A stretch of DNA of 64,000 bases from Tricholomella constricta (taxonomy: Eukaryota > Basidiomycota > Agaricomycetes > Agaricales > Lyophyllaceae). Positions within the stretch are counted from its first letter, which is position 1, and the number at the start of each line of letters is the position of its first letter. The notes under the pieces were generated by a model. That model was not told the origin of the DNA, did no database searches, and saw only the letters and a program-made list of their open reading frames with translations. A program made the translations under genes and the position numbers. Where the stretch lies: the NCBI GenBank assembly GCA_013368375.1, contig JAACJP010000020.1:1-64000 (forward strand), written 5' to 3'. Positions 8,965 to 62,481 of the stretch are shown here, piece after piece.

Positions 8965-9353
8965 ATGGACTCCAAACGCGTCATCCGAGCCCTCCAAAAT
9001 ATGGACACCGAACTCCGGGAATGCCTCCGCTACAACAACAGGCCTGGGTTGATCAGGCTGTACGAGTCAGCAGTAAGATTTTCATTGTCTACTTCTGATT
9101 CCAAACTGATTTCAATCTAAAGGGACAATTGTGGCCGCAATTTCAGGGGGCCTCAGCGGAGTTGAATCAACTCCGGAAGCAGTCGCAAATTGCGCGAGCG
9201 CTTCCGGTTTTGAAAATGCTCGCGGCTAGGCAGATCGATATGTCGGCCCTGGTTGCGGAACTTACCATACGGCTTGGGCTCTCAGTCCCCCAGTTCTCTG
9301 GCCAACCTGACACAAGCCCGTCGCCAAATGCTGCTCCCGGTTCCCGGTCCACC
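8965..9353 (+). pseudogene. Zinc-cluster-like protein gene, 5' half (interrupted by giant element)
   Basis: ATG at 8965. Exon 1 is 8965-9072 (36 codons), with a GT-AG intron 9073-9122. Exon 2 starts at 9123 and is open up to 9353, where the CACTG end of the 53-kb element begins. The protein part is helical (MDSKRVIRALQNMDTEL at the start, then a Leu/Gln-rich stretch) and turns Pro/Ser-rich before the break. The last codon before the element is ACC (9351-9353). The same triplet follows the element at 62479-62481, where the frame resumes with CAC CCG ACA. This is therefore the N-terminal half of the gene whose second half lies 53 kb away. Confidence 0.8.
9351..9353. repeat. Target site duplication ACC, left copy (giant element)
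   Basis: ACC, a full codon in the host frame, directly before CACTG. It matches ACC at 62479-62481 directly after CAGTG. Confidence 0.8.
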
Positions 9354-10525
9354 CACTGCGGGCGGCGGTCCATGTTTCCGTGGGAAACATGGAAAGGAAA
9401 GATGTTTTTCAACTTCCAAAGAAACATGGATAAGAAACGGGTAATATTTTTCTCAGGAAACACTTAATTAAAATGTTTTATTTATCCCAGATTTTTCTTT
9501 GGAAAAATATATCATTTTTCTTTGACTGTTTCTCCAGAACCATGACAGGTGTTTCCCAAGTGTTATGTGGGAAAAATGAGGAGTTTTTCTTTCACTGTTT
9601 GCCAAGAAACATGAAAGATGTTTCCCATATGTTTCCTAGGAACCACAAAGGGTGTTCTTTCACATGTTTCTCTGGTAACACAAAGGATTTTTCTCAGATG
9701 TTTCCTGGGAACCACTAAGGGTGTTTTTTCACATGTTTCTCTGGTAACACAAAGGATTTTTCTCAGATGTTTCCCCCCGTCCATGAAAGATGTTTCCTAT
9801 CAATGTTTCCCAGGATAAATGTTAAGTGTTTCCTGAGGGAAAATAAAATTAAGAAATATATTTTATGTTTCCGGTGAGTGCGCGATGAGTGAGCAGTGAG
9901 ACCGCGATGAGTGAGCCGTGAGTGAGCCGTGAGTGAGCCGTGAGTGAGCCGTGAGTGAGCCGTGAGTGAGCCGTGAGTGCGCGGTGAGTGTGCAATGAGT
10001 GCGCGGTGAGTGTGCAATGAGTGTGCAATGAGCCGGAGAGTGCGGGGCGAGTGCGCGTGATGAGCGCGCGATGGGTGCGCGATGGGTGCGTGGGGGGTGC
10101 GCGGAGGAGTGCGCCGGTGAGTGCGAGGTGAGTGCGAGGTGAGTGCGCAGTGGTCGCGTCAATGAGCGCCTCCTCTTCGCATTCAACTCACAAAATAAAT
10201 ATACTGACTCAACTAATTTTGTTAATGAGGGTGAGCGCGCCCTGGACCCCAGACAGAGCGCGCACTCAGACGCGCTCATTTCTTTCAATGAGGGTGAGCG
10301 CACTCTGCACTCCTACCAGGTAGCTCACTCGATTCAGTACATGAGGCGATGAGTGCGCCCTCAGTGCCTTACGGACGACCCGAGCACTCGGCTCACCCTT
10401 TCTAACCTAGGTAGGTTGTACAAATCAAATATTAGCATTGATATTTAGGTGTATAGTATCCCGTATAATGCATAGCCCACTCCTCTATCATTCCCATCAG
10501 AAATTCTAGTACTTAGTCCATAATC
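9354..10525 (+). repeat. Left terminal inverted arm of giant element
   Basis: About 1,172 bp matching 61304-62478 in reverse complement. The match stops abruptly after TTAGTCCATAATC. The outer part (9370-9870) is full of scattered GTTTCC/GGAAAC motifs and two near-copies of a roughly 75-bp block, probably subterminal transposase-binding sites. The middle (9870-10150) is a degenerate array of about 11 bp units (GTGAGTGAGCC type) that differs in length and phase from the right arm. The inner part (10180-10525) is unique-looking and nearly identical between arms. Long open frames here are repeat artefacts. Confidence 0.9.
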
Positions 10526-10765
10526 CCCAGTCAACATCCCATGTATTAGCTAACTTTTTTTAACATTCACAAACATAACGTCCATTATCACGCATTAATC
10601 TAACATTATACTGCCTCTCACCACCTCTCGAAAGTCACGATTCCATTTAGCTTTGTGACGAACTTTGACAAAACAATGCAACAACACGTTTCATCACTTC
10701 AAACGCGTGAGATAATAACATCATCATTTCGTCTGACTTGATCATTTCTGGCCACAAACACCGAC

Positions 10766-10972
10766 ATGCAACCACGCAACTCATCGACTGCAAAGCGCGC
10801 CGGTTATAACCAGGAACTTCAACAAGCTCAGGACGACTCTCTAGCGGCTTTCCTTGCAGGCCGTAATCTACCTGTTCCCCCGGCCCTCCTTGGCACAAGA
10901 TCTGGCTTCGATGGACATGAAAGGCGTGTTAGGCAGAGACACGAAAAGAGAGGAAGGAATATGGATACCATG
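10766..10972 (+). CDS. Unrecognised small ORF beside left arm
   Basis: ATG at 10766 opens a Gln/Arg/Ser-rich, basic reading frame (MQPRNSSTAKRAGYNQEL at the start) that reaches a plausible donor after ATGGATACCATG. Possible further exons up to 11300 include a short CGRC-containing segment, but I could not splice them without a stop. I do not recognise the family. It could be the 5' part of a decayed gene. Confidence 0.3.
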
Positions 10973-11363
10973 GTGCGTTTCATACTAATTCTGTTGATTT
11001 CGGATGCTCACATGAAACTCACAATGCTACCAATGAAGGGACCTCGCTGCCGGACGAAGTCCGACCGCCACGTCACATGAAACTTCGAAGGTCAAGCTAA
11101 GGCTGCGGTACGTCTTTTGTTAATCATACATTGGGGTCTTGTTGATGCCTGTCGTTGTCTTAGAAAAAGGTCGCAAGATCGGAGAAGATTGCAAAGTCGA
11201 AATGTGAGTTTTCTGTCCTCGGCTTGCGTGGTTGGACTGACACATTCTCTATAGAGAACGCGAGTATGAAGCTCAATGTGGCCGCTGTGCAGTGATGAAG
11301 GTCAGTCCCCCCTCAAGTAACTTCATAATGTATAATGTATAATGCTAATGTTAAACACCGCAG

Positions 11364-12000
11364 GCGTACAGGGGCCCGAACGGCGAACCCCGCCTCTTCC
11401 GCCCCAAACTGAACATGGAGGGCCTCGCTCGGTCCGCTGAACGCGTCGCTCTGCCGGTAAGTACCAAATCCTTCCGTACTGAATCTGTTTTTAATGGCGC
11501 GCAGCCCTTTGATACGGACACCGTGCTAACGCTGATCAAACGCCTGGTGGCCATCGACGCGCGCTGGATCCCCACAAAGCCAGGGCACAGCCTGTACATC
11601 CGGCCTACTATCATCAGTATCTGCGCAGGTCCGTGTCTCCCCCTTCCCTTCCCCCCCTCCCCCTCCGTCTTCTCCCTTCTTCTCCGCACACTCCTAATCT
11701 TCTCGCACCCACAGCCCTAGGAGTCGCCGCCTCAGACAGCGCGATGCTCTACGTAATAATGACGCCCACGGGCCCATACTTCAACACCTCCACCACCAAG
11801 GGCATCCCCCTCTGTCAGCACGACAGTACGCTCCTGGCCCGGCGGCACGGGCGGGCACAAGCTCGGGCTCAACTACGCCCCGGGGTTCCTCCCCCAAAGG
11901 CTGGCGGCGCGGCAGTGGTACAGCCAGGTATTGTGGTTGTTGGGGGATGAAGGGGATACGGGCAGAGGAGGGGAGGGGGGCAAGCAAGCGCAGGTAACAA
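11364..12000 (+). pseudogene. Branched-chain aminotransferase fragment (broken)
   Basis: Three exons can be followed: 11364-11456, 11505-11628 and from 11715, with introns in frame. The peptide has fold-type IV aminotransferase landmarks: LFRPKLNM, then SLYIRPTII, then LGVAASDSAMLYVI, then TPTGPYF. About 11800-11825 the frame slips, and the next segment (VRSWPGGTGGHKLGLNYAPG) is in another frame. It contains the Lys that binds pyridoxal phosphate in this family, and VLWLLGDE follows. The N-terminus and the C-terminal third are missing. The intact enzyme would catalyse the last step of Leu/Ile/Val synthesis or the first step of their breakdown. This copy cannot be functional. It looks like a host gene fragment captured next to the left arm. 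Confidence 0.82.
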
Positions 12001-12173: not shown

Positions 12174-13527
12174 CTACACATCTACAAGGTGATATAGACC
12201 ACAGTCCCTCCAAATACTGCTATGGGTAAAGTGAGGAATACCAATTCGCTGGCCTCCTGTCCAATCTTCAATCATGTGGAGTAATACACGACCTCTCAGA
12301 AGGACAAAATCTCCAGGCTCCAGTCTGATCCGTAAATTGAGTTGAGGTATGTAGATATAACCACCTTTAAAGGATCCTGCTGCAAAGAGGCCTGCGTAGG
12401 CCATCTTGGGATCCTGGGAGTCAGTATGCAGACCAGACTTCCTGTTGAAAAGCAGCTCCCTGCCTTCAAACAACAATGGATCTATTGCATTCAATGCTTT
12501 CATGGCGCTGTACCTGGTGTTTTGACAATCGCGCAGTCGAGAGATATTTTCGTGGAATGAGGGGTCTGCGAGGCGAATCGCTTCGTTGATCCGTTGAGAA
12601 AGGGGTGTTAATGCGTCATATAAGGCGCAAGTGGTGGAGAACACTGTGCCGGTGGACATGCTATCCTTGGAAGGCATGACCATGCCTTTTTTCTGACAGA
12701 CCTGTTAGACTTTTGTGATGTGGTGGTCATAAGAGAATGAATTACCTCCTGTCCTAGGGCATGCCATCCCCTGGAGAGTCTGATCTCACCAGCTATTTCG
12801 TCAGGTCTATGCTCGTAGAGGCCAACCTTGTCCTGGCTGGTAGCAGATTTGCCAATGTGTGGCTGAACTACAGCAGCATAGTCCATCAGTATCTTATTAA
12901 GTGTGGCCTAAACAGAGGTCAGTGACATGGCTAGAAAAAATAATTGGTCTCTGACCACGCCCCGCTCCTTGACAAGCTTGGGAAAATAAACAGCCAGCGT
13001 ATATCCATCTGAACTGACCACCTTTCTTGGACAATCGTCATCCCAAGTCATGGGAAGGGGCGGGACATCTGTGGCTAGTGGTTTGAGGCCCCCAGCTGCC
13101 CTTGCAAAATTGAATGGGACGACAACTAAAATAGTGAGCCAGGCAGGAGTCAAAGTTGTAAGCTCACACACCATGATTAACTTCCAAAGATGCAGCCATG
13201 TGTCGAACGAATCGAATGTTGTCAGAAGGTCTGGACACCTGCGGTTTCCGTCGGCGTTTGGAGTGTTTCCGGTTCGAAGGGGTAGCGTCATCATCAGTGA
13301 GAGGTCCGTCAAAAGCGTCAGCAGCAAGATAGGCCAATTGCTCTTCTGTTAGCTCGTTGGTATATCTGAATGTCGAAGGGAGGGTTAACTCATGACCAAC
13401 TTCCAGGCAAGGGTCCTACCGTTCAGTATTCACATCGACCCCCCGGGTACGCCGATCGAGTCGAGCAGCCACAGCACGAGCAACAAGCTTGGGTGGAGGA
13501 GGAGCATTCTGACCAGTTTGGAAACTA
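12174..13527 (-). pseudogene. TET/JBP-like 2OG-Fe(II) dioxygenase, main part (split by nested transposon)
   Basis: Minus strand, several exons: 13527-13420, 13365 to about 13250, about 13180-12951, 12907-12746 and 12701-12174, with introns such as 12702-12745. The N-terminal part has a basic stretch (KHSKRRRKPQ), likely nuclear. The catalytic half has the metal-binding HxD (HTD at 12419-12427), a GGYIYIPQL strand, LRGRVLLH (distal His) and a downstream GQRIGIPHF Arg, the double-stranded beta-helix pattern of fungal TET/JBP-like proteins. TET/JBP enzymes oxidise 5-methylcytosine or thymine in DNA, and in agarics such genes are expanded and travel with transposons. The 5' end lies beyond the nested CACTA element, at 21137-21199. 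Apart from that insertion the reading frame looks intact. Confidence 0.72.
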
Positions 13528-13530
13528 GTA

Positions 13531-13607
13531 CACCGGAGGCATTTGCCACGGCATGTTGAACAATATGAATTCAGTTCACTTGACATGTACATCAAGTGGC
13601 ATCACGC
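13531..13607 (+). repeat. Left TIR of nested CACTA element
   Basis: Starts CACCGGAGGC; about 77 bp match 21060-21136 in reverse complement with a handful of mismatches. Target duplication GTA at 13528-13530. Confidence 0.82.
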
Positions 13608-14128
13608 AATTGATTACATAAAATTGACTTTTTGGTAGTCGGTAGTCGGAAATTCGGCAAATTTCGGCAAACTAGAATCCGAGTACCGGATTTTGGAATT
13701 TTGAAATCGAACTCAGAATCAAACTCGGAAATAGGCTGCACGCTCACAATCACTCATAATCAGATTAGTTCTTTTCTCAACCTTCAGCCTTTACTCTCCC
13801 CTTGTCCCCACATTGTGAGTTCTTGTCATAACTTTCAATTCATTTATTTCATACTGATACTGATGCAGTTTGCAACTTGTAAGGTGGTAGGTATACAATC
13901 AAATAACCCAGTATATCCGATCACTGATTATTTTTCTCTTATCTACAGATCTCAACAGCTGCATCCAGATTCTCTGATTTCTGGCATCTCTATCTGGTCT
14001 TTGAGAGCCTGAGTTTTGATTTCTGGTGTCTGGTCTGGTCTTTGAGAGCTTGAGTTCCAGTCTTCTGGATATTTTTGGCATCTGCTCTGCTTGCTTGTCG
14101 CTCTGGTCTTTTCTGGGTATCTGAGAAA

Positions 14129-17100
14129 ATGAGAAAGGTCCTCTGCACTTGCAGCAAGTGTAATCAGTATACTTGTACTGATCATGGACATCAAGTTTCT
14201 GGGCAAAAAGTCAGTACTCAAACACGTAGAAATCATGAGCTTCAAGATCTACGATTTCCAAGAAATCGAGATAGTCAGAGAGCAAGAAATCAAGATAGTC
14301 AGAGAGTTAGATCATCGTCTCCGTCTATACATTCAGAAAGGATTGGATCCTCTTTTACATCAGCAACGCTGTCATCTCAGACTGCACATGTACTAGATCT
14401 TGCTGAAGTTGCTGCACCTGTTCTTGATCTCTGCTGTATTGTAGTTGCTTGGCTATCCTTGCATGCTGGAGTTAGCAGAAACACAGCCAATACTATGCTA
14501 AAGGCTTTTAGTTTCATCATTACAACGATGCTCAGGCTTATTCAGATTGCACTCAGATCGACTGGAGTAAATGTCACCGTCACTCAGAAAAAACTCGACA
14601 ATTTTCCTTTGGATATCCGAACAGTTTATTCTTATAGCCAGCTCAACCCAGTAATTGTACGAACTGTCTGTTGCCCTCAATGTTTCAAACAATATCCTAT
14701 AGGTGTAATTCCTATACGGTGCACATGGAAACGCTCTCCACGATCTAAACCTTGTGGTACTGAGCTTTCTGTTGAACGGCAAACTCGAAATGGAACTCGC
14801 AGAGTTCCGAAATGTCTTTTCAATACTCAATCATTCGAATCCTGGCTTATCTTTTTACTTTCTCGGGCCAATATTGAAGAAAGTTTACAACAAACGTTTG
14901 CAAAAACTCAGCACCTTGGCAACACCACTCGAATGCATGATATTCATGATAGTCCTATTTGGAATTCACTACGGCCCTATTTACAATCTTGTCATCATCT
15001 GGTATTTGCTATTTATATTGATTGGTTCAACCCATTTACCAACAAAATTGCTGGCAAGGTTGTATCATGTGGTGCAATTATACTCTACTGTTTGAATCTG
15101 CCATTATCAATCAGATTTCTTCGAGAAAATACTTTTATCATTGGCATGACTCCAGTTCCTCATGCTCCAAATGTTTGGACAATTTCTCATATTCTTCATT
15201 CAATTCGAACTATGATAATGGAATTTGACCTCCCTGGAAAATTATTACCAACACATCAGCATCCTGACGGTACTGCAGTTGCTGCTCGGATTATTCCTTT
15301 AATTGCAGATCTGGGAGGTATAAAAAAGGTGACTGGGTTCTTGTCTCATGGAGCTGGTCCTTTTTGCTCTTTTTGTAAATGCAAGAAAAAAGATATAGAA
15401 AATCTGAACTATCACGAATGGGAGATGAGACAAGGTGCAGAAGTTCGAGCTCAAGCTGAACAATGGCGAAACCTTGTTACAGTCAAAGATAAAGAAATTC
15501 TTGCCAAGCAAACTGGTGTTCGATGGACACCTTTACATGATATTCATTATTGGGATCCAGTCCGATATGTTCTTCTGGGTTATATGCATAATTTTCTAGA
15601 AGGAGTCCTTCAATATCAACTCCGTGTTCTCTGGGGTATTGGTCGTACAAAAGCAGCACTTAAAGCAATTGCAGATTCAGAAAAGGATGACAAAATATCT
15701 GATACCACTTCCATATCTGAAGAGCTAGATAATGAAAGTGATGTTGAAAATGCTGAAAATGCTAGTACATCAGGGCTAACAGCTGATTTTGATATGATGG
15801 ATATTGATGAAGAGTTTATCCAATGGAGTTTGGACAACAGTAATACTCCTACTCCCAGTGCTCCAACTACCCCTGCTCTTGAAAATATTGTATTGATGTC
15901 ACCTGAAGATGAAGATGAGGATATCGATAATCATGACTATGAAAATCTCACAGATGCATTTAAATTTACGGACCAGGAATTACATATAATTCGATCTTGT
16001 ATATGTGAAGTTCAGCTTCCAACATGGGTTCAAAGGCCACCAGGAAACCTTGGAGAAGCTAGTCATGGAAAACTCAAAGCGCATGAGCTACTAGTCCTTT
16101 TTTCTGTTATATTCCCTCTTGTCATGCCAAAACTTTGGTGGAATAGAAACAATCATAAAAAACAGCTACTCGAGAGTTTTTGTGATTTAGTTTGTTCTAC
16201 AAATATCATTGCAGCATACTCTGTCACAAATGCTGAAGCAGATGCATATATGAATCATTACATCAAATATCGTTCTTCAATGCAAAAGCTCTATCCTATT
16301 TTTCATTCAAGGCCTAATCACCATTATGCCATGCATAATGGTGAGATGTTGAAAGTTTGGGGACCTCTTTCTCTGTTAAGTGAATTTCCTGGTGAACGTG
16401 TAAATGGTGATATGGGAAGAATTAAGACTAATCGTCGTCTCTGTGAGTTTTTATACTAAAAATCATTTAACATCTATTCATTTAAATCATAGATCAAATG
16501 GAGTTGACAATGCTTCAACAAACTGCACGTCGAGGACGTTTAGAAGCATTTCTCCATGATAACAATTTTAAAACTACTGCAGAATCTGAACTAGCTAAAA
16601 TTCTGGAACCTGACAACTTTCAGTCTAAACCTACAAGTGTTCTAAATGACATGGAAATTGCTAAGGCTCATGCCAGTGCAATTAGACTAGATGAAAAGCA
16701 TTATCTCATGCTTCTCCAATATCTCAAATTGATTGTACGAAAAGATTATCATTCCGTATATGAAACTATTCCTAAAGTCTTGGGAACACTTATTCTTCCA
16801 CCTTCAGTTAAAAAACCACATCAGATTAACTTTGAAAATCGTACATACAGCCGAAACGATAGTCATACAGGAAACAGTCATATTCAATTTTATATTCCAG
16901 GAGCATCAGATGATGTAACAGAAACAGGATATATAGAAGCAATTTGGGAACTTCCACTCGAAGGAATTTGGCAATCATTTCTTCTGATTCGACAACACCG
17001 AGCACTTTCTCCAACTCAATTAAAACAAAGCCCTTATACATATGAGCCATGCTCAAATTTGCAAACTAAAATTGTAAACTCAGAACCATCTATTCAGGTT

Positions 17101-17223
17101 TTTATTATTGAACCTCGACACATTATATGTCATCTTGCGAGTATCAAAAATCCATCTGGTACATATGGAATTATCGGAGAAACACTGACAATATGCTGGG
17201 GACTAAATCGAAGACGTAGATAG
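14129..17223 (+). CDS. CACTA/CMC (Tnp2-type) transposase, nested element
   Basis: ATG at 14129. Exon 1 is 14129-16442, with a GT-AG intron 16443-16492. Exon 2 runs 16493-17223, giving about 1,010 residues with no internal stop. The N-terminus has a Cys-rich start (CTCSKC). The middle carries family landmarks: CCPQCFKQYP (zinc-binding pair), YIDWFNPFTNKIAGK with the conserved Asp, FCSFCKCKKKD, and YWDPVRYVLLGYMHNFLEG. An acidic insert lies near 15680-15950, and a GRIKTNRR segment spans the intron. The C-terminal domain ends in a basic tail. The protein would bind the element's ends and cut DNA for cut-and-paste transposition. It is AT-rich in codon use compared with the cargo genes. It looks complete and may still be active. 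Confidence 0.88.
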
Positions 17224-17245
17224 ATACAAAAGAGATACTTTAGAA

Positions 17246-18162
17246 TTATTTTGATTGCTTCTTCTTTTCCTTTTTCCTCCTCTCCCTTTCCTTCTTTGCT
17301 TTCTCTTTTTTTAAAACCAATTTTGCTTTTAGCCAAGCATGATACCTTTTTTCTGCATGAAATTCCATTTTTTGACCTCGATGGCCTTGCAGTAACAAAG
17401 CCTTTGCTGTGACCTTTGCTGCTCGAGGTTTTCCTTTACGCCCAGTTCTGATCTATCAAAAGAATACGATCAGATACATAAATCAATAACCAATTGACAA
17501 ATACCTTTGATGGACGTCCACGATAGATAATGCTCTTTATTTCCTTCATGTTGACTCTGTTTAACACCGTCTCATGAAATTGAGCTGGACCAATTGTAGT
17601 TGAATATGAGAATGCTGAAATGTCTTTGGTAACTTCCTCCTAAATAGAAACAAATTAAATTGACCAGAATAATGAGGAAGAAATTGACCTCTTTGCCATC
17701 GAGCCATCCAGGAGGTCGCTGAGCTCGAATGATTGTATAGAAAGGTGAAAGTGCTTTGATACGGACTACTTGCACTTTTTTTGTTGTGTGTTGGCATTTG
17801 CAAATCATTTCAGAAGGATATGGTTGGCCTGATATTTCATTTTCAATATTTAAATATAGTGAAAAAGCTTCTACACACGCACCTATAACATAATTAGGAT
17901 CCAATAAACCTTCCGATGCATATTTGTCATATAATGCTCGAGGAACTATTACTGAAGCTCGTCGAAAAATGTCGACATATTTTGAAAGATATATGCGATT
18001 GGAATTTTCGTTGAATTCGAATGGGTTGTTGGTGTTTGGAACTGTAGTTTCATCTTTCAAAAATTCTTCAGAAGAAAAACGCGCCATAAAATCATGCAAA
18101 GCAGCTTTGAATGGGTAGTAATGCTTCTTCCGACCGTCGCCCCACATACCTACCTTCATCAC
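17246..18162 (-). CDS. Accessory protein of nested CACTA element (unknown function)
   Basis: Minus strand: exons 18162-17689, 17639-17505 and 17452-17246, all phase 0, giving about 270 residues. There is a globular N-terminal part (contains KYVDIFRRASVIVPRALY), a segment with HTTKKVQVVRIKAL, an RGRPSK linker, and a long Lys/Glu/Arg-rich coiled tail ending KKEKKKQSK. I do not know the family. Its place beside the transposase and the basic tail suggest a DNA-binding helper, which is inference. The 5' end is uncertain: a 28-bp tandem duplication (18137-18190) overlaps the start region and more exons could lie upstream. Confidence 0.5.
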
Positions 18163-18600
18163 CGTCGCCCCACATACCTACCTTCATCACCTTTATCGTC
18201 GTCCCACACATCATCTCTGTCACTACTGGTATCGTCCTGCCTTCCGTCATCAGTTATCAGCCACCACTCCTTGGTCATCGCCACTCTTGGTCATCGCCAC
18301 CACTCAGCAATGGATGCATGGGATATGGGGGCAATGTTCGCGTCGGGGGGTTGATCCGGGCTTCAGGAGGCAGCACCGACGAGCGCGCTGCCGCTGGCCT
18401 GCGAATCACACTGGACTTCAGTGCTGGACGTCCTCGAGAACGTTCTCGAGGAGGTGGTGATTGGAGGGATGGGTGGGGTAGGGGCGATGTTTGTGTTGGG
18501 GGTTGATCCGGGCTTCAGGGAGGCAGCACTGATGAGCGCGACCCCCACCACTGTCGCTCCATCTTCTCATTGCTTCCACCACCTCTGCTATCATGACCAT
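18137..18600. repeat. Short tandem duplications in nested element
   Basis: CCGTCGCCCCACATACCTAC is present twice back to back (about 18129-18190). Further on, a block of about 65 bp containing TTGATCCGGGCTTCAGG is present twice (18325-18390 and 18468-18545). No gene seen across 18200-18650. Confidence 0.6.
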
Positions 18601-18650
18601 TTCTATCAGTGTTCTATATAGCATAGCATAATATCATATATTTTCATGTA

Positions 18651-19104
18651 TGGTGCCGGGCGCCTAGAGGCCGCTACTTTTGTACAAGCACCGACGGCTA
18701 TTATTGCATAAGCATTTCTCACCCTTTTTCTTAGTTCTCTTACAGAAATGCTTGAATTGATGAGAGGAACAAAACTGTAAAACAGCTTGTCAAAATTTTC
18801 AAAACTGACGGAGTTAATAAAATTTGGTCCCTTCAGGTTGGCCATATTACTATATATGGTCGGATTTGTCACTTGATAGTCACGCCCTGTGACATTCTGT
18901 CACCCCAGGTCACCACCTTCAGGCCGAAATAGACAGTGAGCACACAGACTTAAAGGCATCAAAAGTGTAAATTTGGAGGTGCCAGCATATCCTGATCAAC
19001 CTCCTTAGACAACTTCGTGAAAATCCTAAATAATTTTTTTTGTTGGTCGCCCACCCCAAGTTGGCCGCTGTACAAAAGTAGCGGCCTCTAGGCGCCCGGC
19101 ACCA
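18651..19104. mobile_element. 454-bp MITE with TA target duplication
   Basis: It begins TGGTGCCGGGCGCCTAGAGG and ends with the exact reverse complement. The inverted repeat is about 36 bp, running to TTTTGTACA. TA flanks it on both sides (18649-18650 and 19105-19106), the pattern of Tc1/mariner-type elements. There is no transposase inside, so it is non-autonomous and needs a helper elsewhere in the genome. Confidence 0.82.
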
Positions 19105-19315
19105 TAGCATAGGTAAGATGGTTTGAATATATGAAGTAGGATGAATCATATTGGACATAAAACTTTTGCGAAGAAGGAGGAAGAGCATGAAGGAAAAAAA
19201 ATGAAAAGAAAATGAAAACATCATAATCGAAATCTGTGAGTATATTAAGCTGGAGCATTCACAAGATATTTGGTCAGACGTACCATGCCATCAAGTCCAT
19301 TTGACTTGTTCCAAT

Positions 19316-20818
19316 CTACAACATGTCCCCATCCTCATCCTCATTGTCCTTGTTATCCAAGTTCAACAGCTCTAATTCTTCCTCTGTCGGAAGGTTATAG
19401 AGTGCTTTGACTGAATTTCCATACTTTGTCATGAACTCGTCTTCGGGCATCTTCTTCCAGTCCGGAGTAGGATTTGAGTCACATGCGTCTTTGAGAGGAA
19501 GAGCGATCGGAGCTTTGATATAGAGGGCACGGAAAGTAATATCCATGCTGTTGAAATAAGCAGGAGAGAACCAATCCAAAGGACAGTTTTGAGGTAAACG
19601 TTCGGATATCCGGCTCGTCCGACCTTCAGGATGGGGAATTCGAGGCTCTTCACGCCGAGTGTTACGCTTTTGACCACGAAACAAAGGGGTTCCAGTTTGT
19701 CGACGAGAATCGATTGTGTGAAGGAAATGGGTGATGTGGATGTTACGAGCAGGTTTGTTCATAATAAGAAATCCAGGTCCAGTGGGATTGTCTTCCTGAT
19801 CCGAGGTACATTCTGGGTCAACAGCAAGGAGCCGAACACGATCATTCCAACCATTATCATGGAGGTACTTGTGGCGGCGATTTGTTAGCTGTCAAAAAAT
19901 AATAAGAATAGAATTATTGTAGAAATAAGCAATCTCATACCTCCAGACGATGTTTATAAGCCTTGTTCTCCTGTTTGGCTCGAACAAGGCTTCCAGGTTC
20001 CTTCTGTTCCTTCAGAACCAAATCCTTCATATATGACCACAGAAAGTTACGATACAGCTTCTGTATCATGATCGTATCCTTGAGGTAGCGAAGATTTGGT
20101 GAGAGATGTTGGTAAGCAAAAATGGACGCAGATTGCTCGAAAGTCCATATAGCAATGGATTCGAGAGCACCGTTATAGGAAGATGTTGGGGTACCACCGA
20201 TGAGGTCAGGACACCATGAAGAAAGACCAAAGGAATGAATCGTGCCAAACAGCATGTGAAGAGCATTTTCTGGAACTCGACCAATAGCAAGAACGATTAA
20301 AGAAGTGGGATCAGTGGCGCACTTGATTCGAAGCTCTCTGATAGCATTCAGTGCCAATTGGTCGACAGATTGGAAGCTCGTGTGATTGCCTTTCAGCAAC
20401 CGATCAACCTCGCTAGCAATGGTGAACCGCTGCTCAAAAGTCCGGATGGCATGCACATCAGGTTGCTCTGGGACTGAAACATTGGTAACAGCACCCAGAA
20501 GTATACGAAGGTGTGTCTCTAAAGCAGTCTGCAACATAATATAATATTAGTTCAAGACAAAGACAAAGACAACGACAAAGACAAAGGTAAAGGCAAAAGC
20601 AAAGGCAAAAATGCAAGAAATTAAGAATTTACCTTGAAGCCTCTAGCATCATCTGGGATATCCCCTTTTTTCAGATGATAGACGTTTTGCCTAAACCTTG
20701 AAGAATCAGTATCAGGGGGTATGACGCCTCATTTCTTCCGCGGTGAATCTGGAGAATTCTTGAAAGAAGAAGTTGTTCTCTTTCGCTTGGGTGTAGACGG
20801 TCCTGCAGGGGAAGACAT
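19316..20818 (-). pseudogene. Transposon-associated protein of unknown function, one nonsense codon
   Basis: Minus strand: exon 1 20818-20633, intron 20529-20632, exon 2 20528-19941, intron 19889-19940, exon 3 19888-19316. The protein starts MSSPAGPSTPKRKRTTSS (basic, nuclear-looking). It then has a helical region, a segment NKPARNIHITHFLHTID and an acidic C-terminus (DNKDNEDEDGDML). I know this type only as a frequent hypothetical protein in agaric transposon regions. An in-frame TGA follows PDSPRKK in exon 1, where the family would be expected to have a basic residue. Everything downstream is open, so this looks like one recent point mutation or a read error. Intron 1 holds a GACAAA-type microsatellite. 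Confidence 0.6.
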
Positions 20819-21059
20819 TGAAGAAGAGAAGATGTAACAAAGGAAATATAGGAAGGACAGGACAAAGGTGCACAAAGGTGCGCGTCGACAAGGAACAAAT
20901 GAGGTCACATGCATTTCACATGACCGTCATATTTCACATGACCATAATTTCATGTGACCATTCCCAATTCCAAATCCGATATCTCGCCGTTCCGATTTCC
21001 AACTACCGAAAAGGTAGAATTGCACTAGACTTTTCATTATGTAATTGATTGACTTTTCC

Positions 21060-21136
21060 TCATGATGGCACTTGATGTACATGTCAAGTGAAGTGAATTC
21101 ATATTGTACAACATGCCGTGGGAAATGCCTCCGGTG
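21060..21136 (-). repeat. Right TIR of nested CACTA element
   Basis: Ends GCCTCCGGTG and is followed by GTA (21137-21139). Further similarity (CAATTGATTACATAA-like) continues inward with gaps. Confidence 0.82.
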
Positions 21137-50669: not shown

Positions 50670-50809
50670 TGGGAAAAGTTGTTTAGACTTGTGGTGCCAG
50701 ATTATAACGGGCGCGGAAGTTTAGGGCAGGCTCAAATTGCTTATTGAGCCTGCCCTAAACTTCCGCGCCCGTTATAATCTGGCACCACAAGTCTAAACAA
50801 CTTTTCCCA
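50670..50809. promoter_or_regulatory. Near-perfect palindrome (66-bp arms, 8-bp centre)
   Basis: Left arm 50670-50735, centre ATTGCTTA, right arm 50744-50809. I found no mismatch between the arms. Each arm contains GAGCCTGCCCTAAAC and TTATAATCTGGCACCAC, as in the upstream region of JmjC-like gene 2 (43849-43905). The right arm points toward the Spt5-like start at 50864, about 80-100 bp downstream of its TATAATC. Confidence 0.85.
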
Positions 50810-50863
50810 ACTTGTTCCCCACCACCACCATTAGTCTAGTTACATACATATAATAGTCGAAAT

Positions 50864-53440
50864 ATGGACAATGCTAATGAAACTTCCAATGTAAGGTAGC
50901 CAAAAATTCTCGTCAGCTATCTGCAAGGCCCACCTGACACCTGCGTCGTAGAGATCTTCTAAGCCAACCAAGCGGTCTCGAATGGAGGTACGAAGATGAA
51001 CCTGTAACTCGTCAAGTAGAATCTTACACATTATTTGCTAGGCGCAAGATGCTCGTATGTTTTTGAGTTTAGAAGCGACGGTCGACGATGTCAGCGAGGA
51101 TGACGACGATGGCGATGAAGATGGTTTGTGGATGTAATAATTGTGATATCTTCTCGAATTGACTGGGCCCAACTAGATGGTTTCATCCAGGATGATGATG
51201 AAGATGATGGCGACGAACCTATCCCCCTGGACCGGACACGTTCACACCATCTTCTTTTGCTTGAAAACACCCGTGCTCAGGAGGATGGATGGGATTCCTT
51301 GCTTGATCGCGCGCGTGCGCGAGGGCGCTCTAATGATGTGCATTATTCTCCTCCTCATGATTTGCCTTTTGTTGTTGGCAGCCCGCATCTGTGGAGGGTT
51401 GCCGTGAAAGTGAGTGACACCACCAATTCAACGCAATCGATACTGACATAAACCCAGCCTGGGTGTGAGGAGTCCGTGGCTTTCGTCTTGATGACAAAAA
51501 TTATGTTTGGCGACGTGTCTCGCTGGCCGATTCAGTCTATCATTGGTCGAGCCTCTCGGCCTGGTTGGATTGTCGTGGAAGCGACCAAAGCCAGCAGTGT
51601 TCAGGAGTTGTGTCTAGGTGTTGCTAATGTTTTTTGCAAACAGGTACACGTCGTTGATCCAGAAGATGGGCCGTCTTGGCTCAAAGAAAGTGTTTCCTAC
51701 TCGCCCTCCAGTCCATCTTGGCTTCGCTTAACCAAATACCCATATCGCGGCGATCTGGCTTTTGTCCAAGACTCCGGCACCTGGGGAACGGACGTCATAG
51801 TTGTCCCTCGCATCGATTTTCAGCGCCGGAAGTCTAACCCTGGAAAACGTAGACGTACCAGCAGTCTTCCTCGAATTGGAGGAACTACCCGTCCCCAGCA
51901 AGCCCTCTTCGATGTCGACAAAATAAAAGAGATTTGGGGACACGAGTCCGTCGAAACTCGAAACCAGGCTTTTCTTTTCAGGGGCAAACTCTTCCTCGAT
52001 GGATATTTATGCTTACAGACGGATGACTTCCACCCTGACGCAGCTATCCCGTCGCTCGACGAAATAGCGCTCTTCAGACACTGGAAGTCTATTCCTAAGG
52101 AGTTCTTAGCACACACATTGGAAATCATGGCAGCGCGTCGCCTGTGTTCAGGTGATCCCGTCAGGGTAGTGACAGGACAAGCTCAAGGTGCCTCTGGTAT
52201 AGTTGAAAGCATTATTGACGAGGAGGCTGTCGTCCGTTTATCGTCTGACAATATGCAGCTCACGTTGCCCGTCGACTCGCTGCGAAAGAAGGTCACAATC
52301 GGGGACGAAGTCATCATCGCAACCGGACCCCACGTGGGCGTTCATGGGTGGGTCATATCAAATGTTCGAGACACGCTTGTAGTCTACAGTCACCAAACTG
52401 CGCAGGAGGTAGGCTCTCTCGTATGTCATTCACAACCAGGGTATTGATGTCGAGCCAGCTGGTTGTTCCGTCTCACTCCGTCAATTTTTCAGAGTCGAGT
52501 TTCAAGCATCGTAGACCGAATCACGAGGTACAAATTTTCCGCCGGGATACCGATCCCAACATTGGACGACAAGTTCGGATCATCGGTCACGGTAGATGGA
52601 AGGACTACACAGGGATTATAAAGTCAGCCGAATCCGGTAACGTTTTTGTGGTTGAAATTCAGGCCACAATGCGGCGGGAGCGCTTCCAACAATCGAATCT
52701 GGTCTTACTGTACGTCTTGATCTTGTTTCACAAACCTGACCGGTCTCAGTTAGATCTTATGCAGGGATGATCCTGACCTGACTCCGTTGGGCTCCACGCA
52801 GACTAACTCCTCCACGAAACCTAAACCTTCCAGCTCATTTCTAGGGTCGGGTGCAAGGATGAACATTGGACCATCGGCCCTTCCTTTGACGCCGTCAACA
52901 CCTCTTCCTCCCGCCTCCAGTGTGTCATTCAGCCCAGCTTGGAACCCCTCTTCTCGGACCCCGAACTCCCTTTCTGCGTTCCGTAAGTTTCTTCTGGATA
53001 CATATCACTGAGTAACATTGAACAGTTTTGTGCCTGTCGTATGTATAGCCTACAACCCGTGGATGGAATCACCCTTTCTCGCAGGAAAACGAATCAAGGT
53101 TCAGTTCAAGGACACCAAAGCCGTCCTTCGTGACCCAGGCTGGAGCCATGGAGACTACGAAGGTAAATCCGGACTTTGGGTTGGAACCGAGGCATCTTTG
53201 GCCAAGATTGTGCTCGGAGTGCACTCGACACTTCTAGTTCCGGAGAGATACGTCCGACCCTTGGTGCCAAGTGTAAAAGGTCAAAACGTCATTGTCCTCG
53301 ATGGTGATGCCTCAGGGGCAATGGAATATTGTGTTGTCAGTGTTGGGGCTACCGATTGCGTTGTACGCAATCGACACGGAAAGCCCGACCCAAAGGATAG
53401 AATACATTTGCCTACGAAAACCTTGGCTGTCATCGCCTAG
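50864..53440 (+). CDS. Spt5-like transcription elongation factor homologue (NGN/KOW)
   Basis: ATG at 50864. Exons are 50864-50890, 50952-50987, 51042-51123, 51177-51409, 51458-52410, then 52492 to about 52709, about 52765-52981 and about 53049-53440, in one frame. The N-terminus is small and basic (SSKPTKRSR), then an acidic stretch (DDDEDDGDEP) as in Spt5. Next is an NGN-like domain (GWIVVEATKASSVQELC). At least three KOW-like motifs follow (DPVRVVTGQAQGASGIVES, GDEVIIATGPHVGVHGWV, RQVRIIGHGRWKDYTGII), then a Ser/Pro-rich part and a C-terminal beta domain. Spt5 with Spt4 keeps RNA polymerase II processive. This copy is shorter than typical Spt5 and is carried by a transposon, so it may be a specialised paralogue. 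Confidence 0.8.
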
Positions 53441-55299: not shown

Positions 55300-56056
55300 C
55301 CTGTAGCTTACAAGTTATACTAGTTGTGTTCCCCAGCCTGATCTTTGTTCTCAACCACAGCCCACCAAGAGCTTCAATCTTGGCACACCTGCAAGTCGAT
55401 GAAGGCGCACTCAGAGGGCGCTCCGAGTGCGCCTTCCTATTTTGGATCCAGGCACTTGATTGCTTCCCCTTCTGGAAGCGCCACCGATTTGTAAGCACTT
55501 GGATGTCCAACAGGTACAATGCGCTCAGCCAGAAAAGGGCATACATTCATCCAGTGGTTATAACCTTTCTCTATCCAAAATTCAGATGTCCATACCCTGT
55601 TTATTAGTACTGGTGTATAACAGTCGGTGCAGTCGTCAGCGCTCTTATTTGTACGATGTGCTGTTCGCTGCATTGTTAGAGGTACGCCGCCTGCTCCTGA
55701 TATCTCTGGTATCATTATTCTTATGACCCGCTTTCGTACGGTCGGATTTGTGGTATCCACGAAAGGGAACCTTGAGGGGAGAATAAGGGAGGCCCGGACT
55801 ATAGAGTCCCGAAACGGAGCCAGGGATGTCTTGAACAACGGAGACCCGGACCACATAATCCCGATGCGGAGCGAGGGATGGCTTGTTAGGAGGTACTTGA
55901 ATGGCTCTGAGTCCGACAGTTCGTACTTGGTTGAAGTTCTAGAAGATAACCTTGCAATTGTGTGGGTTGATCTATCAAGACGTCGGCTTATTCCGCCGGG
56001 TTCCCTCGGCCCGCTTAACTTCTCTTTGTTCTCAACCACAACAGCCCTCCACTTGT
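55300..56056. other. Spacer before second CACTA transposase
   Basis: Open frames on both strands (55627-56056 plus, 55437-56090 minus) have no recognised features. TTTGTTCTCAACCACA occurs at both 55344 and 56026, which could mark a short duplication or old insertion. Confidence 0.4.
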
Positions 56057-59000
56057 ATGAATCGCCCGTTGCAGCTATGTACTTGCACATCTCATGGTTG
56101 CAAAAATAACACCACCTCGGATGGTAGAGCTGGCTTCCTTGTCAATCAGCGCACTCTTGCTGCACACACAAAGCTCGACAAGCAAACCGCTGCCATCGGC
56201 CACATTAAGGCCCGCGATGCTGGAGCAAAACTCCACCATGATGCTACTCTTGCAGCTGCAGTAGATCGGATTTCTGCCTCCACTGACGCAGCCAATATTC
56301 CAGGCGCTGTTGGGACACCCACTCATCGTGGTCGTTTTGCGATTGAAAGGTCGCGAAAGATGGTGCAGCATGCCAGTGATGCGCTAGAGGCTATAGAGTC
56401 CCTATCCAAACAGGCGGAAACCGTAGGAATGTCCACCGCTACTGCACAGGATCAGCACATTTTGGAAAATCTCCAAGCTCTTGGAGGTCTCCAGCAGCTC
56501 CTTGACACAGAGTCTCTCAATCTTAGTACCATTTCCAAGGTCACAGTCCCTGCAGTTTCAGCGGTGTATCAGCAGGCATACGAGAGGCTCAAATCAACTA
56601 AGGCATATATAATCAGCTCCCAGGATACCTGGCAGCAAGAGGCTCAACGACGGGTTGTGGAACGCAAGCATGGGACTTCTGTATACGACACTAGTGAGTG
56701 GATTTGGAGACCTGATTCTTTGATTTTCTGTTGACCACCGGTAATCGATAGAGGAACACTTCCGTCCAATCTTCGAGAACACACTTCCCGTGGTTCAACT
56801 GGTGTTTCTGATGATCACTGCTTGCCACTTGATCCTTCGCCTTCCTCGCCGCGGAACCCGCTGGCTATTCATCATGTGCCATCAAGTCATCATGTGTACA
56901 CTGTGCATGGTGAAAGCCATCCTTCCTATCCGTATTACCGCCACTCTGGACAAATTTCCCCGTGACATACGGGCTGTCATAGATGGATTTCATCTGGACA
57001 GAAAATACACGGTCTACGCATCCTGCCCTCGCTGTCACCACATCCATGCACCCACAATCATAAACTCCATCCCGCTGTATCCCGAACGCTGCCAGTCCCG
57101 TCGTTATGGAAATTCCTGCAAGGAACTTCTTGTCCGTCCACAGACCACGGGAAAAGCAAGGATCAGGATCAAGGTGCCGATTCGCCAATATATTGTCTTC
57201 CACTTCAATGATTGGCTCGGGGGCTTGCTATCACGTTCCGGCTACGAGGAGAAAATGGACAGCGCCTGGGACAAACTGGCGCTCCCCGCTGATGGGCGGT
57301 TGACTGACCTATTCCATGGCTCAATGGCCCAAAGCTTCAAGGGCCCTGATGGGAAGCACTTCAGCCGGTCTGGCAGCCTACATGCCGGGCGCTATCTCTT
57401 TGCGCTCAGCTTTGACTTTTTCAGCCCTGACGGGGTGAAGGTCGGGAAAAAGCAAAAGTCGGTTGGCCTCATCACTCTCACCTGCCTCAATATCCCCATC
57501 ACAGAATGATATCTTCCTGAAAATACATACACCATGATCATTCCTGGTCCACGAGAGCCAGCTCTTGACGCTATAAACCCCTATCTCAAACCGATCGTTG
57601 ATGTGTTTGAACATTTGTGGACCGGCGTCTTCTTCGAAAAAACCTGCAAGTATGCTCTAGGGCGGATGATCCTTTGTGCAATTCTCCTTGTCATCAGTGA
57701 TCTACCAGCTGCACGGAAGATCGGGGGCTTTGCAGCTGCTTCAGCAAATCTCTTCTGCTCGAGGTGCTGGTGCACCCTGGCCAAGGACACACATGCGGAC
57801 TACCAATACGACAAATGGAAAATGCGCACAGGGCCTGAATGTCGATCATGGGCTGGGAAATTTGCTGGAGCAGCATCTGCAGACGAGGCAGCGCAGTTCT
57901 TCAAGCAATCAGGTTTGCGATCCACCGAACTCCTGCGTCTTCCATACTATGACCCCACCCGCTTTCTAGTAGTGGACCCGATGCATAATCTCTATCTGGG
58001 TCTGATACATGAACATGTTGAGAGGATCATCGGTTACCCTGGAAAACACAAGCATTCCGATGGACCCCGTCATGGCGTACGCATTCATATATCCCCATCC
58101 GACTCCAATCCATTGCCAGGAAAACAAAAGGAACAAACCAGTATCCGCAGGTTGATCTCAAAACTGTCCAAGCCGCTGGATTTTGATCAACCCGTTGGTC
58201 CTAAATTCCAGAAAATGGTGGATCGGATCGCAGATTCTACTCACTTCAATTCTTTGCTGTATATTTCCCGTGGCCTCGGCTGTGAGCCACGGCAGCGGAA
58301 AGTTCAGGCCCTCACAAGAAAGGCCTACAGTGATGTTATCCTGCGATGGGTAAGCTCAGAGTGTCTTCCTGAATTTGGCCATTCATTTACCCCCCATTTT
58401 CTACAGCGATTGCAGCAAAAGGAGGAACCCATTGTTTCCAGCCATGGCTGCTTGTTCACGAAGGAGGAGATGACTTTTATCGGAGGTGTCATCCGAAGAA
58501 TTGATAAACCCTCGTGGTTGACGCGCATACCTCCAGAGTTGTCCTCTAGAGGTCAGAAGCTTAAATCTGACGAATGGCGTATAGCAGGACTTCTATACCT
58601 CCCTGTGGCCCTTGTTTGCCTCTGGTCACAACAGGCGAAAACCAGGGCACTCCAGATCTCAGCTGGTGACATCGATATCGACGAATTTTCTTTGAATGGT
58701 GATCCTCATGATCAGAAGCCCCTCCCACTCTATCCTTCGGACGAGGAGGTTGACCGTGTGGAGCTACTTCATGCAACCCTCCTCCTCTTTTCAGCTGTCA
58801 GCGTAGCTTCATCTCGGGAAACATCTGCACGTCACAGTGCTCGTTACCTGGAGCTTATGATGGACTACCGTAGGATCTTACAAGAGATCTTCCCAGACTA
58901 CAAACCGGCCCAAAATTACCACATGGCCATGCACGTTCACGAGTTTTTGGAAATGTATGGTCCCGCCCCTGGATGGTGGGCATTCCCATATGAACGTTTG

Positions 59001-59916
59001 ATCGGGATGATGCAAAGGATTACCACCAACTACAAGCCAGGTATCTTTCAACTTCTCCTGTATGATCTTCTGATGCCTGATCTCTGCCGTGTTTCCCCTA
59101 GGCGAATACGAGGAGACAATTCTACGGACATGGCATCGTACAGCGAATTTCAGGGGCCTCTTCCTGAAATCAACCACGCCGGAGGTTATACGTCAAAGAG
59201 CCCACCTTTTCCAGGAATTTGTCCGCCTACAGGATCACGGAATTCTGTCTGCAGACCTTTTACTACCGACCGATGACGCTGATGATGAGGCCAATGATGA
59301 TTCGGAGACGTCTCCCGCTATCAACAAGACCAGCATGCCAGGAGATATCAGTTCTGCTCTGAGCATCCACGTCGGCCACAGCAAGCGTATTCCGCACACT
59401 ACTCAGTTTCGCACTTTCATCCACCATCACGGGGTTATCTATACGACCTACACACGCCACCAAGGCAACGGTTCTGTGTTTATCAAAGGATGTTCTGTTC
59501 CGTGCATCATCACTCACATCTTTGAACTGTGGAATACCCATTGGGTTGCCTTGAGTGGCCGCCGGCCTGCCAGTCCCGACGTTTCGGATCCGTTTTTGCC
59601 ATATCCAGAGCTGAAAACGCAGCTGTGGAGCACGGAATTCCACGAGGAGGTTATAGTGCGAGAGATATCACAAATTACTGGGCATTATGCAACCTATGTT
59701 GCGCCCGAGTTGGGACACAAGCAGGGGATTGTGATTTCCCTGCAAAAATATGGGAGTCCTGACTTGGATGAAGAGATGTCTGTCGACTATGACGATTCTG
59801 ACATGTTGGTTGACGAGAGCGATTTGGTGGATGATAGGATGTCGATTGACGGCGAGGAAGGGATCAATCAACGTGTGTTTCTTTCCTTCCTCTTTATTTT
59901 GGCTTGGACCATCTGA
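56057..59916 (+). pseudogene. CACTA/CMC (Tnp2-type) transposase 2 with one nonsense codon
   Basis: ATG at 56057 (MNRPLQLCTCTSHGC). Exon 1 ends 56693, intron 56694-56751, exon 2 56752-59040, intron 59041-59101, exon 3 59102-59916. Landmarks are a Cys-rich start, a helical region, YASCPRCHHIH, the FSPDGVKVGKKQ segment where the conserved Asp lies in LSFDFF, FCSRCWCTLAKD, YYDPTRFLVVDPMHNLYLGL, a GEYEETILRTW segment spanning intron 2, and a C-terminal HYATYVAPELG domain. An in-frame TGA at 57508-57510 falls between CLNIPITE and YLPENTYT; a CGA (Arg) there would restore the frame. It is otherwise open over more than 1,240 codons. Close to the right arm, it is the best candidate for the giant element's own transposase. 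Confidence 0.85.
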
Positions 59917-61303
59917 GCCGCATTTTCAGAGATGGGTCGCTGAACACCTGACTAAATTCGTCGCCCTTCTGTCAAAGTATGCGGTTCATGATCCTGTGCC
60001 AGGACATATATGTAGGACGGTGGTGCACGCTCGTATACCAGGCTAGATTCCAGATACACAACACCTCATCAGTTGTGAGAATACACTGCATCCTATGATC
60101 GACCTTCACCCCGCAAGATCTCCTCCTTCCGAACCTTTGTCCCTGTAAATATTCTGACTGGTCCCACTGTTTAACCGCTATAATGACGATAATGTTGGAA
60201 TCGTTTCTCAAATCCAACTCTCGAGAATAAGATGGAAAAACATAGTCCACAAAAACGTCAGTCCCCCTTTGGAGGTCCAAGTGATGACAAATCAATTGAA
60301 GAAGTTGATGAAGGTCTCCTGAATCCGAGGAGAGCGCGCCAGCCTGCGTGGCCTCGCTATTCATACGAGATCTCATACTGGACGTTGTTATGTTTCCTTT
60401 TGCCGCTTCTGTCTCTTCCTTGATTCCGTACTGACTCACATAACACCACACCACTCCATTTCTCTTATCTTCTCAAAATCCCTGCTGAACACAACGTATG
60501 ATATTCCACACTGCACTTAGAGACTACAAGATCCACCGACCATCCATGCATCGTTATTTCTTCACGTTACCCTTTCTTGGCTTTTAGCCCTGCTTCTTAG
60601 CTCAGTATGTAGCTTGCCGGCAGTAAAATTCAAATTCATCATCATCATCATCCTGTATCAGTGTATGTCAGATCACGCAACAAGAGTAGTTTCTGGTATG
60701 GGTGAGAGTGAATGAGAAGCCTTGATATCATAAGGTACATCTGCACCTTAAGGCCACACTTCGGCATGTTCCATAATCCTCGCTCACGCTATGCTCAACA
60801 CATCTCTCGTTTCCATGGACTGGACAAGTTCGGCACTCCAGATCATGCTATGAGCGCGCAGGCGGGGTCTTCGCATTGAACGTGCCATTCCTGCAGTTCA
60901 TGCGGTCTTTGACCAGTATCAAGGTGACCTTGAATGCCTCAAGATTCAGAACCTCGTATATCTGTAATTATTTATTTTTTTCTATTGAGATACAGCTATT
61001 TTAACATTTAGAGGACTGAAACTCACTCGTACGACGAAAACACCACACATCATACACTTCGAGCATTTGATCAAGATGGTGCAAACGTCTTGACATTCCA
61101 TATGGACTTGGACAACCCAGAGAGTGACAAAGTATATGAAAACCTTTTCACCCCGGGGGTACAACTACCGAAGATTAAGTTTTTCATGGTCTACTGGCGA
61201 TGATGTGCAGTTAACGGAAAAATTAGCTGTAATGCGATAATAGAAATTTGACTGTGGCCTGTGTATTGCATCTGTATTTAATCTACCTAACGGTTGATTG
61301 GCT
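59917..61303. other. Spacer before right arm
   Basis: No gene supported. It contains the dispersed inverted repeat 60337-60628 and a short CATCATCATC run (60638-60652). The rest shows no family or clear exon. Confidence 0.5.
60337..60628 (-). repeat. Dispersed repeat, copy 2 (inverted partner at 21.7 kb)
   Basis: Reverse-complement copy of 21690-21965, lying between the second CACTA transposase and the right arm. The pair is placed like an inner set of inverted repeats. Confidence 0.75.
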
Positions 61304-62478
61304 GATTATGGACTAAGTACTAGAATTTCTGATGGGAATGATAAGTAGAGGAGTGGGCTATACATTATACGGGATACTATACACCTAAATATCAATGCTA
61401 ATATTTGATTTGTACAACCTACCTAGGTTAGAAAGGGTGAGCCGAGTGCTCGGGTCGTCCGTAAGGCACTGAGGGCGCACTCATCGCCTCATGTACTGAA
61501 TCGAGTGAGCTACCTGGTAGGAGTGCAGAGTGCGCTCACCCTCATTGAAAGAAATGAGCGCGTCTGAGTGCGCGCTCTGTCTGGGGTCCAGGGCGCGCTC
61601 ACCCTCATTAACAAAATTAGTTGAGTCAGTATATTTATTTTGTGAGATGAATGCAAAGAGGAGGCGCTCATTGACGCGACCACTGCACACTCACCTCGCA
61701 CTCACCCGCGCACTCACCCGCGCACCCCCCACGCACCCATCGCGCACCCATCGCGCGCTCATCACGCGCACTCGCCCCGCACTCTCCGGCTCATTGCACA
61801 CTCATTGCACACTCACGCGCACTCATGGCTCACTTCTTGCGCACTCACCGCTCACTCACCGCTCACTCATCGCACGCTCACAGCTCACTCATCGCGCGCT
61901 CACAGCTCACTCATCGCGCGCTCACAGCTCACTCACCGCTCACTCATCGCGCACTCACCGGAAACATAAAATATATTTCTTAATTTTATTTTCCCTCAGG
62001 AAACACTTAACATTTATCCCCGGAAACATTGATCAGAAACATCTTTCATGGACCGGGGGAAACATCTGAGAAAAATCCTTTGTGTTACCAGAGAAACATG
62101 TGAAAAAACATCCTTAGTGGTTCCCAGGAAACATCTGAGAAAAATCCTTTGTGTTACCAGAGAAACATGTGAAAGAACACCCTTTGTGGTTCCTAGGAAA
62201 CATATGGGAAACATCTTTCATGTTTCTTGGCAAACAGTGAAAGAAAAACTCCTCATTTTTCCCACATAACACTTGGGAAACACCTGTCATGGTTCTGGAG
62301 AAACAGTCAAAGAAAAATGATATATTTTTCCAAAGAAAAATCTGGGATCAATAAAACATTTTAATTAAGTGTTTCCTGAGAAAAATATTACCCGTTTCTT
62401 ATCCATGTTTCTTTGGAAGTTGAAAAACATCTTTCCTTTCCATGTTTCCCACGGAAACATGGACCGCCGCCCGCAGTG
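61304..62478 (-). repeat. Right terminal inverted arm of giant element
   Basis: About 1,175 bp, the reverse complement of 9354-10525, ending CCGCCCGCAGTG. It differs from the left arm mainly in the GCTCACTC-type simple array (61690-61960) and in a few substitutions and small indels. The arms have therefore drifted independently only in their unstable repeats. Confidence 0.9.
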
Positions 62479-62481
62479 ACC
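62479..62481. repeat. Target site duplication ACC, right copy (giant element)
   Basis: ACC directly after the CAGTG end; partner of 9351-9353. Host coding continues with CAC at 62482 in the matching frame. Confidence 0.8.

Follow-up and report, generated by a model that had tools for sequence, protein, structure and literature searches.

A giant CACTA-type element of 53,125 bp (9354-62478) was characterized in a window of 64,000 nucleotides from the agaric Tricholomella constricta (positions 1 to 64,000 of contig JAACJP010000020.1, assembly GCA_013368375.1), where it is sited within a host gene. On balance, we favor the reading that these 53,125 bp are one CACTA-ended insertion, likely moved as a unit by a RAG1-like tnp2 transposase of its own family, and that its TET/JBP, JmjC-like and SPT5-like cargo would help it to escape silencing. 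The reading is built on the single-ACC empty site, on another giant copy that has a duplication of its own and 24.6 kb of interior in common, on the open transposase frame of that other copy and on a history of nested insertions. The genome of T. constricta (44.1 Mb, 118 contigs) was scanned as a whole; C-numbers such as C51 and C59 denote its contigs.

At the left boundary, the host sequence ...GGTCC is followed by ACC and then by CACTGCGGGCGGCGG, which starts at 9354. At the right boundary, CCGCCGCCCGCAGTG ends at 62478 and is followed by ACC and CACCCG. CACTG...CAGTG ends, inverted arms of about 1.17 kb and an ACC on both sides had been described in the original prediction and were confirmed. 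The two arms (1,182 and 1,186 bp) are 96.8% identical over 1,170 aligned positions and 98.6% identical in their outer 510 bp. The prediction that the host frame becomes continuous once the element and one ACC are removed also held: in-silico removal gives ...GSRSTHPTPAPAP..., and the joined host halves with a single ACC, which had been named as something to look for, were found in the same genome at C59. The rejoined flanks and C59:94201-96200 are identical at 568/574 bp, with no gap at the junction. The C59 locus shows the uninterrupted state, whether it represents the other haplotype or a duplicated gene.

Searches of the genome with the arms yielded 18 matches for the left and 13 for the right arm, the queries' own places counted. 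Three two-ended copies have duplications, and CACTG...CAGTG ends are present in 3/3: the 53-kb copy (ACC), a second giant copy of 81,040 bp at C51:68242-149281 (ATC) and a 1,213-bp derivative at C57:28807-30019 (TTA). Single or broken arm ends lie at C48, C15, C1, C111 and C35. The C51 arms are 99.8% identical to each other over 911 bp; compared between elements, the arms are 93.2 and 94.6% identical at full length and 97.3-97.5% in the outer 510 bp. Further arm copies with common cargo had likewise been proposed as a check, and C51, the only other giant pair, shares nine interior blocks with the 53-kb copy (24,650 aligned bp, 98.2% identity). The two sites are unrelated and carry different duplications, yet the same arms enclose this interior at both, so at least 24.6 kb travelled together.

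The two giant copies are not collinear throughout. Relative to the TET block, eight of the nine common blocks are in opposite orientation, and C51 has a second TET copy near its other end, on the opposite strand and interrupted by a gypsy element; recombination between inverted TET copies would account for this reversal. Over JmjC-like gene A, a tract at 30.0-33.0 kb diverges from C51 by 0.0-1.0% per 500 bp, compared with 0.6-6.9% in the other 500-bp steps; exchange between the copies is a possible cause. The 43.4-53.5 kb module of the 53-kb copy is absent from C51, which has about 40 kb of mostly private sequence. Within C51 lies a nucleotide-sugar transporter gene (C51:111908-112825, L023:5908-6825; PF04142, E 3.6e-44) that is 74-86% identical to exons at C12:503662-504488 and reads, from its sequence, as a captured host gene.

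Membership in CACTA/EnSpm (CMC group) is supported by the CACTR...YAGTG inverted ends, the 3-bp duplication, the sub-terminal repeats and a tnp2-type DDE transposase with a C(2)C motif and a predicted RAG1-like fold. The repeat TGTTTCC/GGAAACA occurs 12 times in the first 530 bp, where 0.24 occurrences are expected and 2,000 first-order shuffles reached a maximum of 3. Sub-terminal repeats are known from plant CACTA elements, as is a second gene of the TnpA kind. The C51 copy of the transposase has an open frame (tnp2 PF02992, E 6.8e-6), and its homologue P0001 matches the same family above the Pfam cut-off (E 5.6e-14). The homologue search gave 98 matches; D224, D319 and C338 are invariant in 35/35 aligned sequences and C341 is present in 34/35. 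In sequence, the transposase is only 10-13% identical to the RAG1 and Transib recombinases, and the 3-bp duplication of the element differs from the 5-bp duplication made by Transib. The rows for Hermes, the P element and ISCth4 in the fold comparison were well below RAG1. The public T. constricta protein P0004 (D9615_008694) is spelled by exact forward-frame stretches for 1,253/1,257 residues over about 51.0-57.5 kb and ends at the premature stop of the 53-kb copy, which identifies the host as this species of the Lyophyllaceae. Frame 56745-57506 differs between the 53-kb copy and C51 by 1 non-synonymous and 3 synonymous changes.

Both giant copies have been entered by other transposons. A smaller CACTA element in the 53-kb copy (Table 1) encodes its own transposase at 14054-17223, and C51 has the unoccupied site for it, with a single GTA present. 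The 801-amino-acid (aa) transposase frame of this nested element has matches of equal or near-equal score at C15, C42 and C27 and close relatives at C57 and C5. The transposase at 14-17 kb was considered as a second transposase of the giant element and rejected, since the empty site in C51 assigns it to the nested CACTA. C51 holds two gypsy elements with 5-bp duplications and end repeats that are 99.8% and 100% identical, as well as a nested Kyakuja-Dileera-Zisupton (KDZ) transposase gene (PF18758, E 4.5e-36). Both copies therefore owe part of their size to later growth, and not all 53 kb are original. The initial view of a single mobile unit of about 53 kb with many genes thus stands as to the one insertion and the cargo common to C51, and has to be revised as to length, part of which is nested transposons such as the 7,606-bp CACTA.

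The cargo genes are listed in Table 1; their models were built by us and are approximate. A Pfam scan covered all 44 frames of at least 150 aa inside the element, many of which overlap and so cannot all be genes; the reporting threshold was E 1 for the first two frame sets and E 0.01 for the rest. Matches at E <= 0.01 were Tet_JBP, TauD, tnp2 (2.2e-5), SPT5 NGN with KOW, and a collagen model on a low-complexity frame. The frame with SPT5 NGN and KOW also gave two marginal matches. The TET-like gene matches Tet_JBP at E 2.1e-5 (below the cut-off) and the related TauD at 0.0012; in the PDB, it matches CcTet (8jkk/7vpn, E 1.5e-6 and 1.7e-6) and the Naegleria Tet-like protein (4lt5, E 5.3e-6). Its HxD motif (HTD) aligns to the His-x-Asp of CcTet, and a later H is in register in the same alignment. 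JmjC-like proteins A and B are 43% identical, with HxD and H conserved (HID, NT[LI]H). The best PDB match of a profile of both is the lysine demethylase KDM7 (E 0.013), no gain over the single B query. The SPT5-like part matches SPT5 (7nky) at E 1.3e-30 over P0004 residues 4-436. Between the 53-kb copy and C51, the TET frame has 3 non-synonymous and 4 synonymous changes (ratio of non-synonymous to synonymous rates, dN/dS, 0.22), and the remaining frames range from 0.1 to 2.8, chance frames included. These values neither show nor exclude constraint on the cargo.

Table 1 Features of the giant element and of the interrupted host gene (positions in the window)
Feature	Position	Strand	Basis or remark
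Host gene, 5' part	8965..9350	+	Gap-free alignment across the junction to the uninterrupted C59 copy (L047)
Target-site duplication ACC, left	9351..9353	.	Sequence and C59 empty site
Left terminal inverted arm, 1,182 bp, CACTGCGGGCGG end, TGTTTCC sub-terminal repeats	9354..10535	+	
TET/JBP dioxygenase gene (putative), partial model	12174..12886	-	Exons 12746-12886, 12174-12692; 98% identical in C51
Nested smaller CACTA element, 7,606 bp, CACCGGAGG...CCTCCGGTG	13531..21136	+	74-bp inverted ends, duplication GTA
Predicted gene, kept in C51	24061..26018	-	No Pfam family
Predicted coiled-coil gene, kept in C51	27077..28575	-	No confident family
JmjC-like gene A, several exons, kept in C51	31258..34389	-	Similarity to gene B; KDM7 weak
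WD40 beta-propeller gene, rough model, kept in C51	41329..43035	+	Pfam beta-propeller E 6.4e-8 in joined model, below family cut-off
JmjC-like gene B	45385..48675	+	PDB KDM7 3n9l E 0.007; related blocks C19, C42, C9
SPT5 homologue (acidic N-terminus, NGN, KOW)	51036..53440	+	Pfam Spt5-NGN E 1.5e-10, above cut-off, in P0004
Transposase gene	55943..59916	+	Exon 55943-56731 upstream of core 56745-59273 (single premature stop); last part runs to 59916
Right terminal inverted arm, 1,186 bp, ...CAGTG end	61293..62478	-	
Target-site duplication ACC, right	62479..62481	.	Sequence and C59 empty site
Host gene, 3' part (Pro-Ala repeat, cysteine-rich end)	62482..63151	+	98.5% identical to C59 past the repeat

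SPT5-like genes are strongly multiplied in the T. constricta genome, with 37 matching rows that merge into 24 places; in merging, 13/37 rows were treated as pieces of one locus, and the weak row C9:43855 was retained in the recount. The match at C5:1383895 (31% identity) could represent the SPT5 of the host itself. Of the 24 SPT5-like places, 6 (three of them at C9) have one of 34 transposase places, six lone fragments included, within 20 kb, against 0.74 expected; counted as loci, the figure is 4/22 against 0.68, one of the four being the 53-kb element itself. The expectation assumes uniform placement, an assumption that transposon clustering would break. At C47, an SPT5-like gene and a transposase gene share one 10-kb stretch, and no convincing element ends were found in the 10 kb inspected around this pair. 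The SPT5 block of the 53-kb copy recurs at C46, C4 and C74 (91%) and at C62, C59, C42, C38 and C9, and the JmjC-like B block at C19, C42 and C9 (88-89%). At C42 and C9, order and strand of the two blocks are unchanged, and the order within the 43.4-53.5 kb module is preserved along about 40 kb of C42. The known giant-element arms were not among the arm matches listed at the loci with recurring SPT5 and JmjC-like B blocks. The SPT5 block opens with a 71-bp inverted repeat (50665-50814) that is near-perfect and has a loop of 8 bp. The relatives of the block at C46, C4 and C74 start there too and show, about 6.5 kb away, one more inverted match each. The pattern at these three contigs would fit SPT5 having travelled on a separate element of about 10 kb as well.

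Right of the junction, 59 bp reach the CACCCG repeat (62487-62690), which is far longer here than in the C59 copy. Beyond the repeat, 526 bp align to C59 at 98.5% and then 160 bp at 100%. Between these two aligned pieces sits a 454-bp insert (63152-63605) that is absent in the C59 copy and has CAGCCAG on either side; part of it matches stretches of C111 and C35 at 79%. A gypsy-type retroelement with integrase zinc-binding, RNase H and protease domains (1701-7738) is a close left neighbour of the host gene and does not belong to the element.

Giant cargo-carrying elements of fungi are known as Starships, which are moved by a tyrosine recombinase captain. The element resembles them in giant size and variable cargo and differs in its transposase, which is RAG1/CACTA-like by predicted fold. 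Starship identity was rejected, as no tyrosine recombinase captain was matched in the Pfam scan of 44/44 frames of at least 150 aa. Starships of 42-606 kb have been reported from the basidiomycete Tremella fuciformis (PMC13066641). CNIRT6 of Cryptococcus neoformans is likewise a basidiomycete CACTA with CACTG ends and has been shown to move; unlike the giant element, it has a gene annotation of about 6.9 kb, and the available parts of the source describe no giant cargo (PMC12810828). EnSpm elements that carry TET genes have been described in mushrooms (Kojima 2025, PMC12730594) and share with the giant element CAC...GTG ends, a 3-bp duplication, a tnp2-type transposase and a TET/JBP gene aboard. 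The giant copies may differ from them in their size of 53 and 81 kb, and they differ in inverted arms of 0.9-1.2 kb and in the JmjC-like, SPT5-like, WD40 and host-derived genes. The HxE motif is given there as the hallmark of PE-type TET, found in Agaricus transposons, whereas the giant element TET has HxD. Mushroom KDZ transposons also carry an HxD-kind TET/JBP gene beside the transposase; according to the same source, they encode a KDZ transposase and make 7-8 bp duplications (PMC12730594), unlike the giant element with its 3 bp and tnp2/RAG1-like transposase. No KDZ transposase was matched in the 44 scanned frames of the 53-kb element, and KDZ identity was rejected on the length of the duplications.

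The initial statement that no such basidiomycete class was known has to be taken with caution. CACTA elements of 50-80 kb, or SPT5- and JmjC-like genes as CACTA cargo, were not found in searches of the open-licence literature. Fungal EnSpm elements with TET, a moving CACTG-ended CACTA in Cryptococcus and Tremella Starships are already known.

Several observations weigh against the favored reading. The transposase core of the 53-kb copy carries a premature stop, the tnp2 and Tet_JBP matches of the element proteins fall below the Pfam cut-offs, and the JmjC assignment is weak (E 0.007; two-sequence profile 0.013). The main transposase frame (57510-59273) has a dN/dS of 0.44 (19 non-synonymous, 13 synonymous changes), and the other conserved frames range from 0.2 to 0.9, as do chance frames on the other strand. 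A protein search with the JmjC-like model gave nothing at E 0.001 among 7,998 candidates scored; neither did a 331-aa SPT5-like piece, too short to retrieve full-length SPT5, among 1,344 candidates. The genome search gave no SPT5-like or gene-B match in C51, and therefore these genes are not needed by every copy.

In a less likely alternative, the same giant CACTA carries passive, decaying passengers from nested insertion and recombination that have no anti-silencing role. The copies differ in the 43.4-53.5 kb module and in the private C51 sequence, several frames drift (dN/dS 0.4-0.9), the C51 transporter gene has no known silencing role, and a gypsy element disrupts one of the C51 TET copies. 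However, TET/JBP genes recur in unrelated fungal DNA transposons (PMC12730594), CACTA-type transposase genes of other lineages have SPT5-like genes nearby, and neither order nor strand of the JmjC-like and SPT5-like blocks changes at C42 and C9. It is improbable that a small CACTA inserted and then grew to 53 kb in place, so that no unit of such size ever moved. The nested 7.6-kb CACTA, the two gypsies of C51 and the 1.2-kb two-ended derivative at C57 would agree with this, but growth in place as the only process was rejected, being largely refuted by C51, where the arms enclose 24.6 kb of the interior of the 53-kb copy at an unrelated site with another duplication. That two independent terminal fragments or short elements flank host DNA by chance has hardly any probability left: single and broken arms do exist at C15, C48, C1, C111 and C35, but the arms are not a chance pair because the C59 empty site with one ACC aligns gap-free across the junction, the duplication is common to both ends and the same interior recurs at C51.

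Under the favored reading of a cargo-carrying CACTA moved as a unit, the transposase would bind the sub-terminal TGTTTCC repeats on the long arms, pair both ends and move tens of kilobases by cut-and-paste. Because its own frame has a premature stop, the 53-kb copy would now need transposase supplied from another copy such as C51. Judged by homology, the TET-like enzyme would oxidize methylated bases, the JmjC-like proteins may remove histone methyl marks, and the SPT5 homologue could favor transcription of the element. Together they form a plausible anti-silencing kit. An anti-silencing role was proposed by Kojima for transposon TET genes (PMC12730594); the extension from TET to JmjC and SPT5 is our own.

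More tentatively, mushrooms may possess their own giant cargo-mobilising elements, in which a RAG1-fold CACTA transposase would take the place of the Starship recombinase; such elements would reopen their chromatin by a kit for self-derepression (a TET/JBP DNA oxidase, demethylases of the JmjC-like kind and an SPT5 elongation factor of their own) and pick up host genes. As two sites in a mushroom show, tens of kilobases with common genes can also lie between the ends of a RAG1-like cut-and-paste system. The set of DNA oxidase, demethylase-like proteins and SPT5 is a concrete proposal for how a large element could stay active, and the host-type gene aboard C51 is relevant to how genes move within mushrooms and perhaps from one to another.

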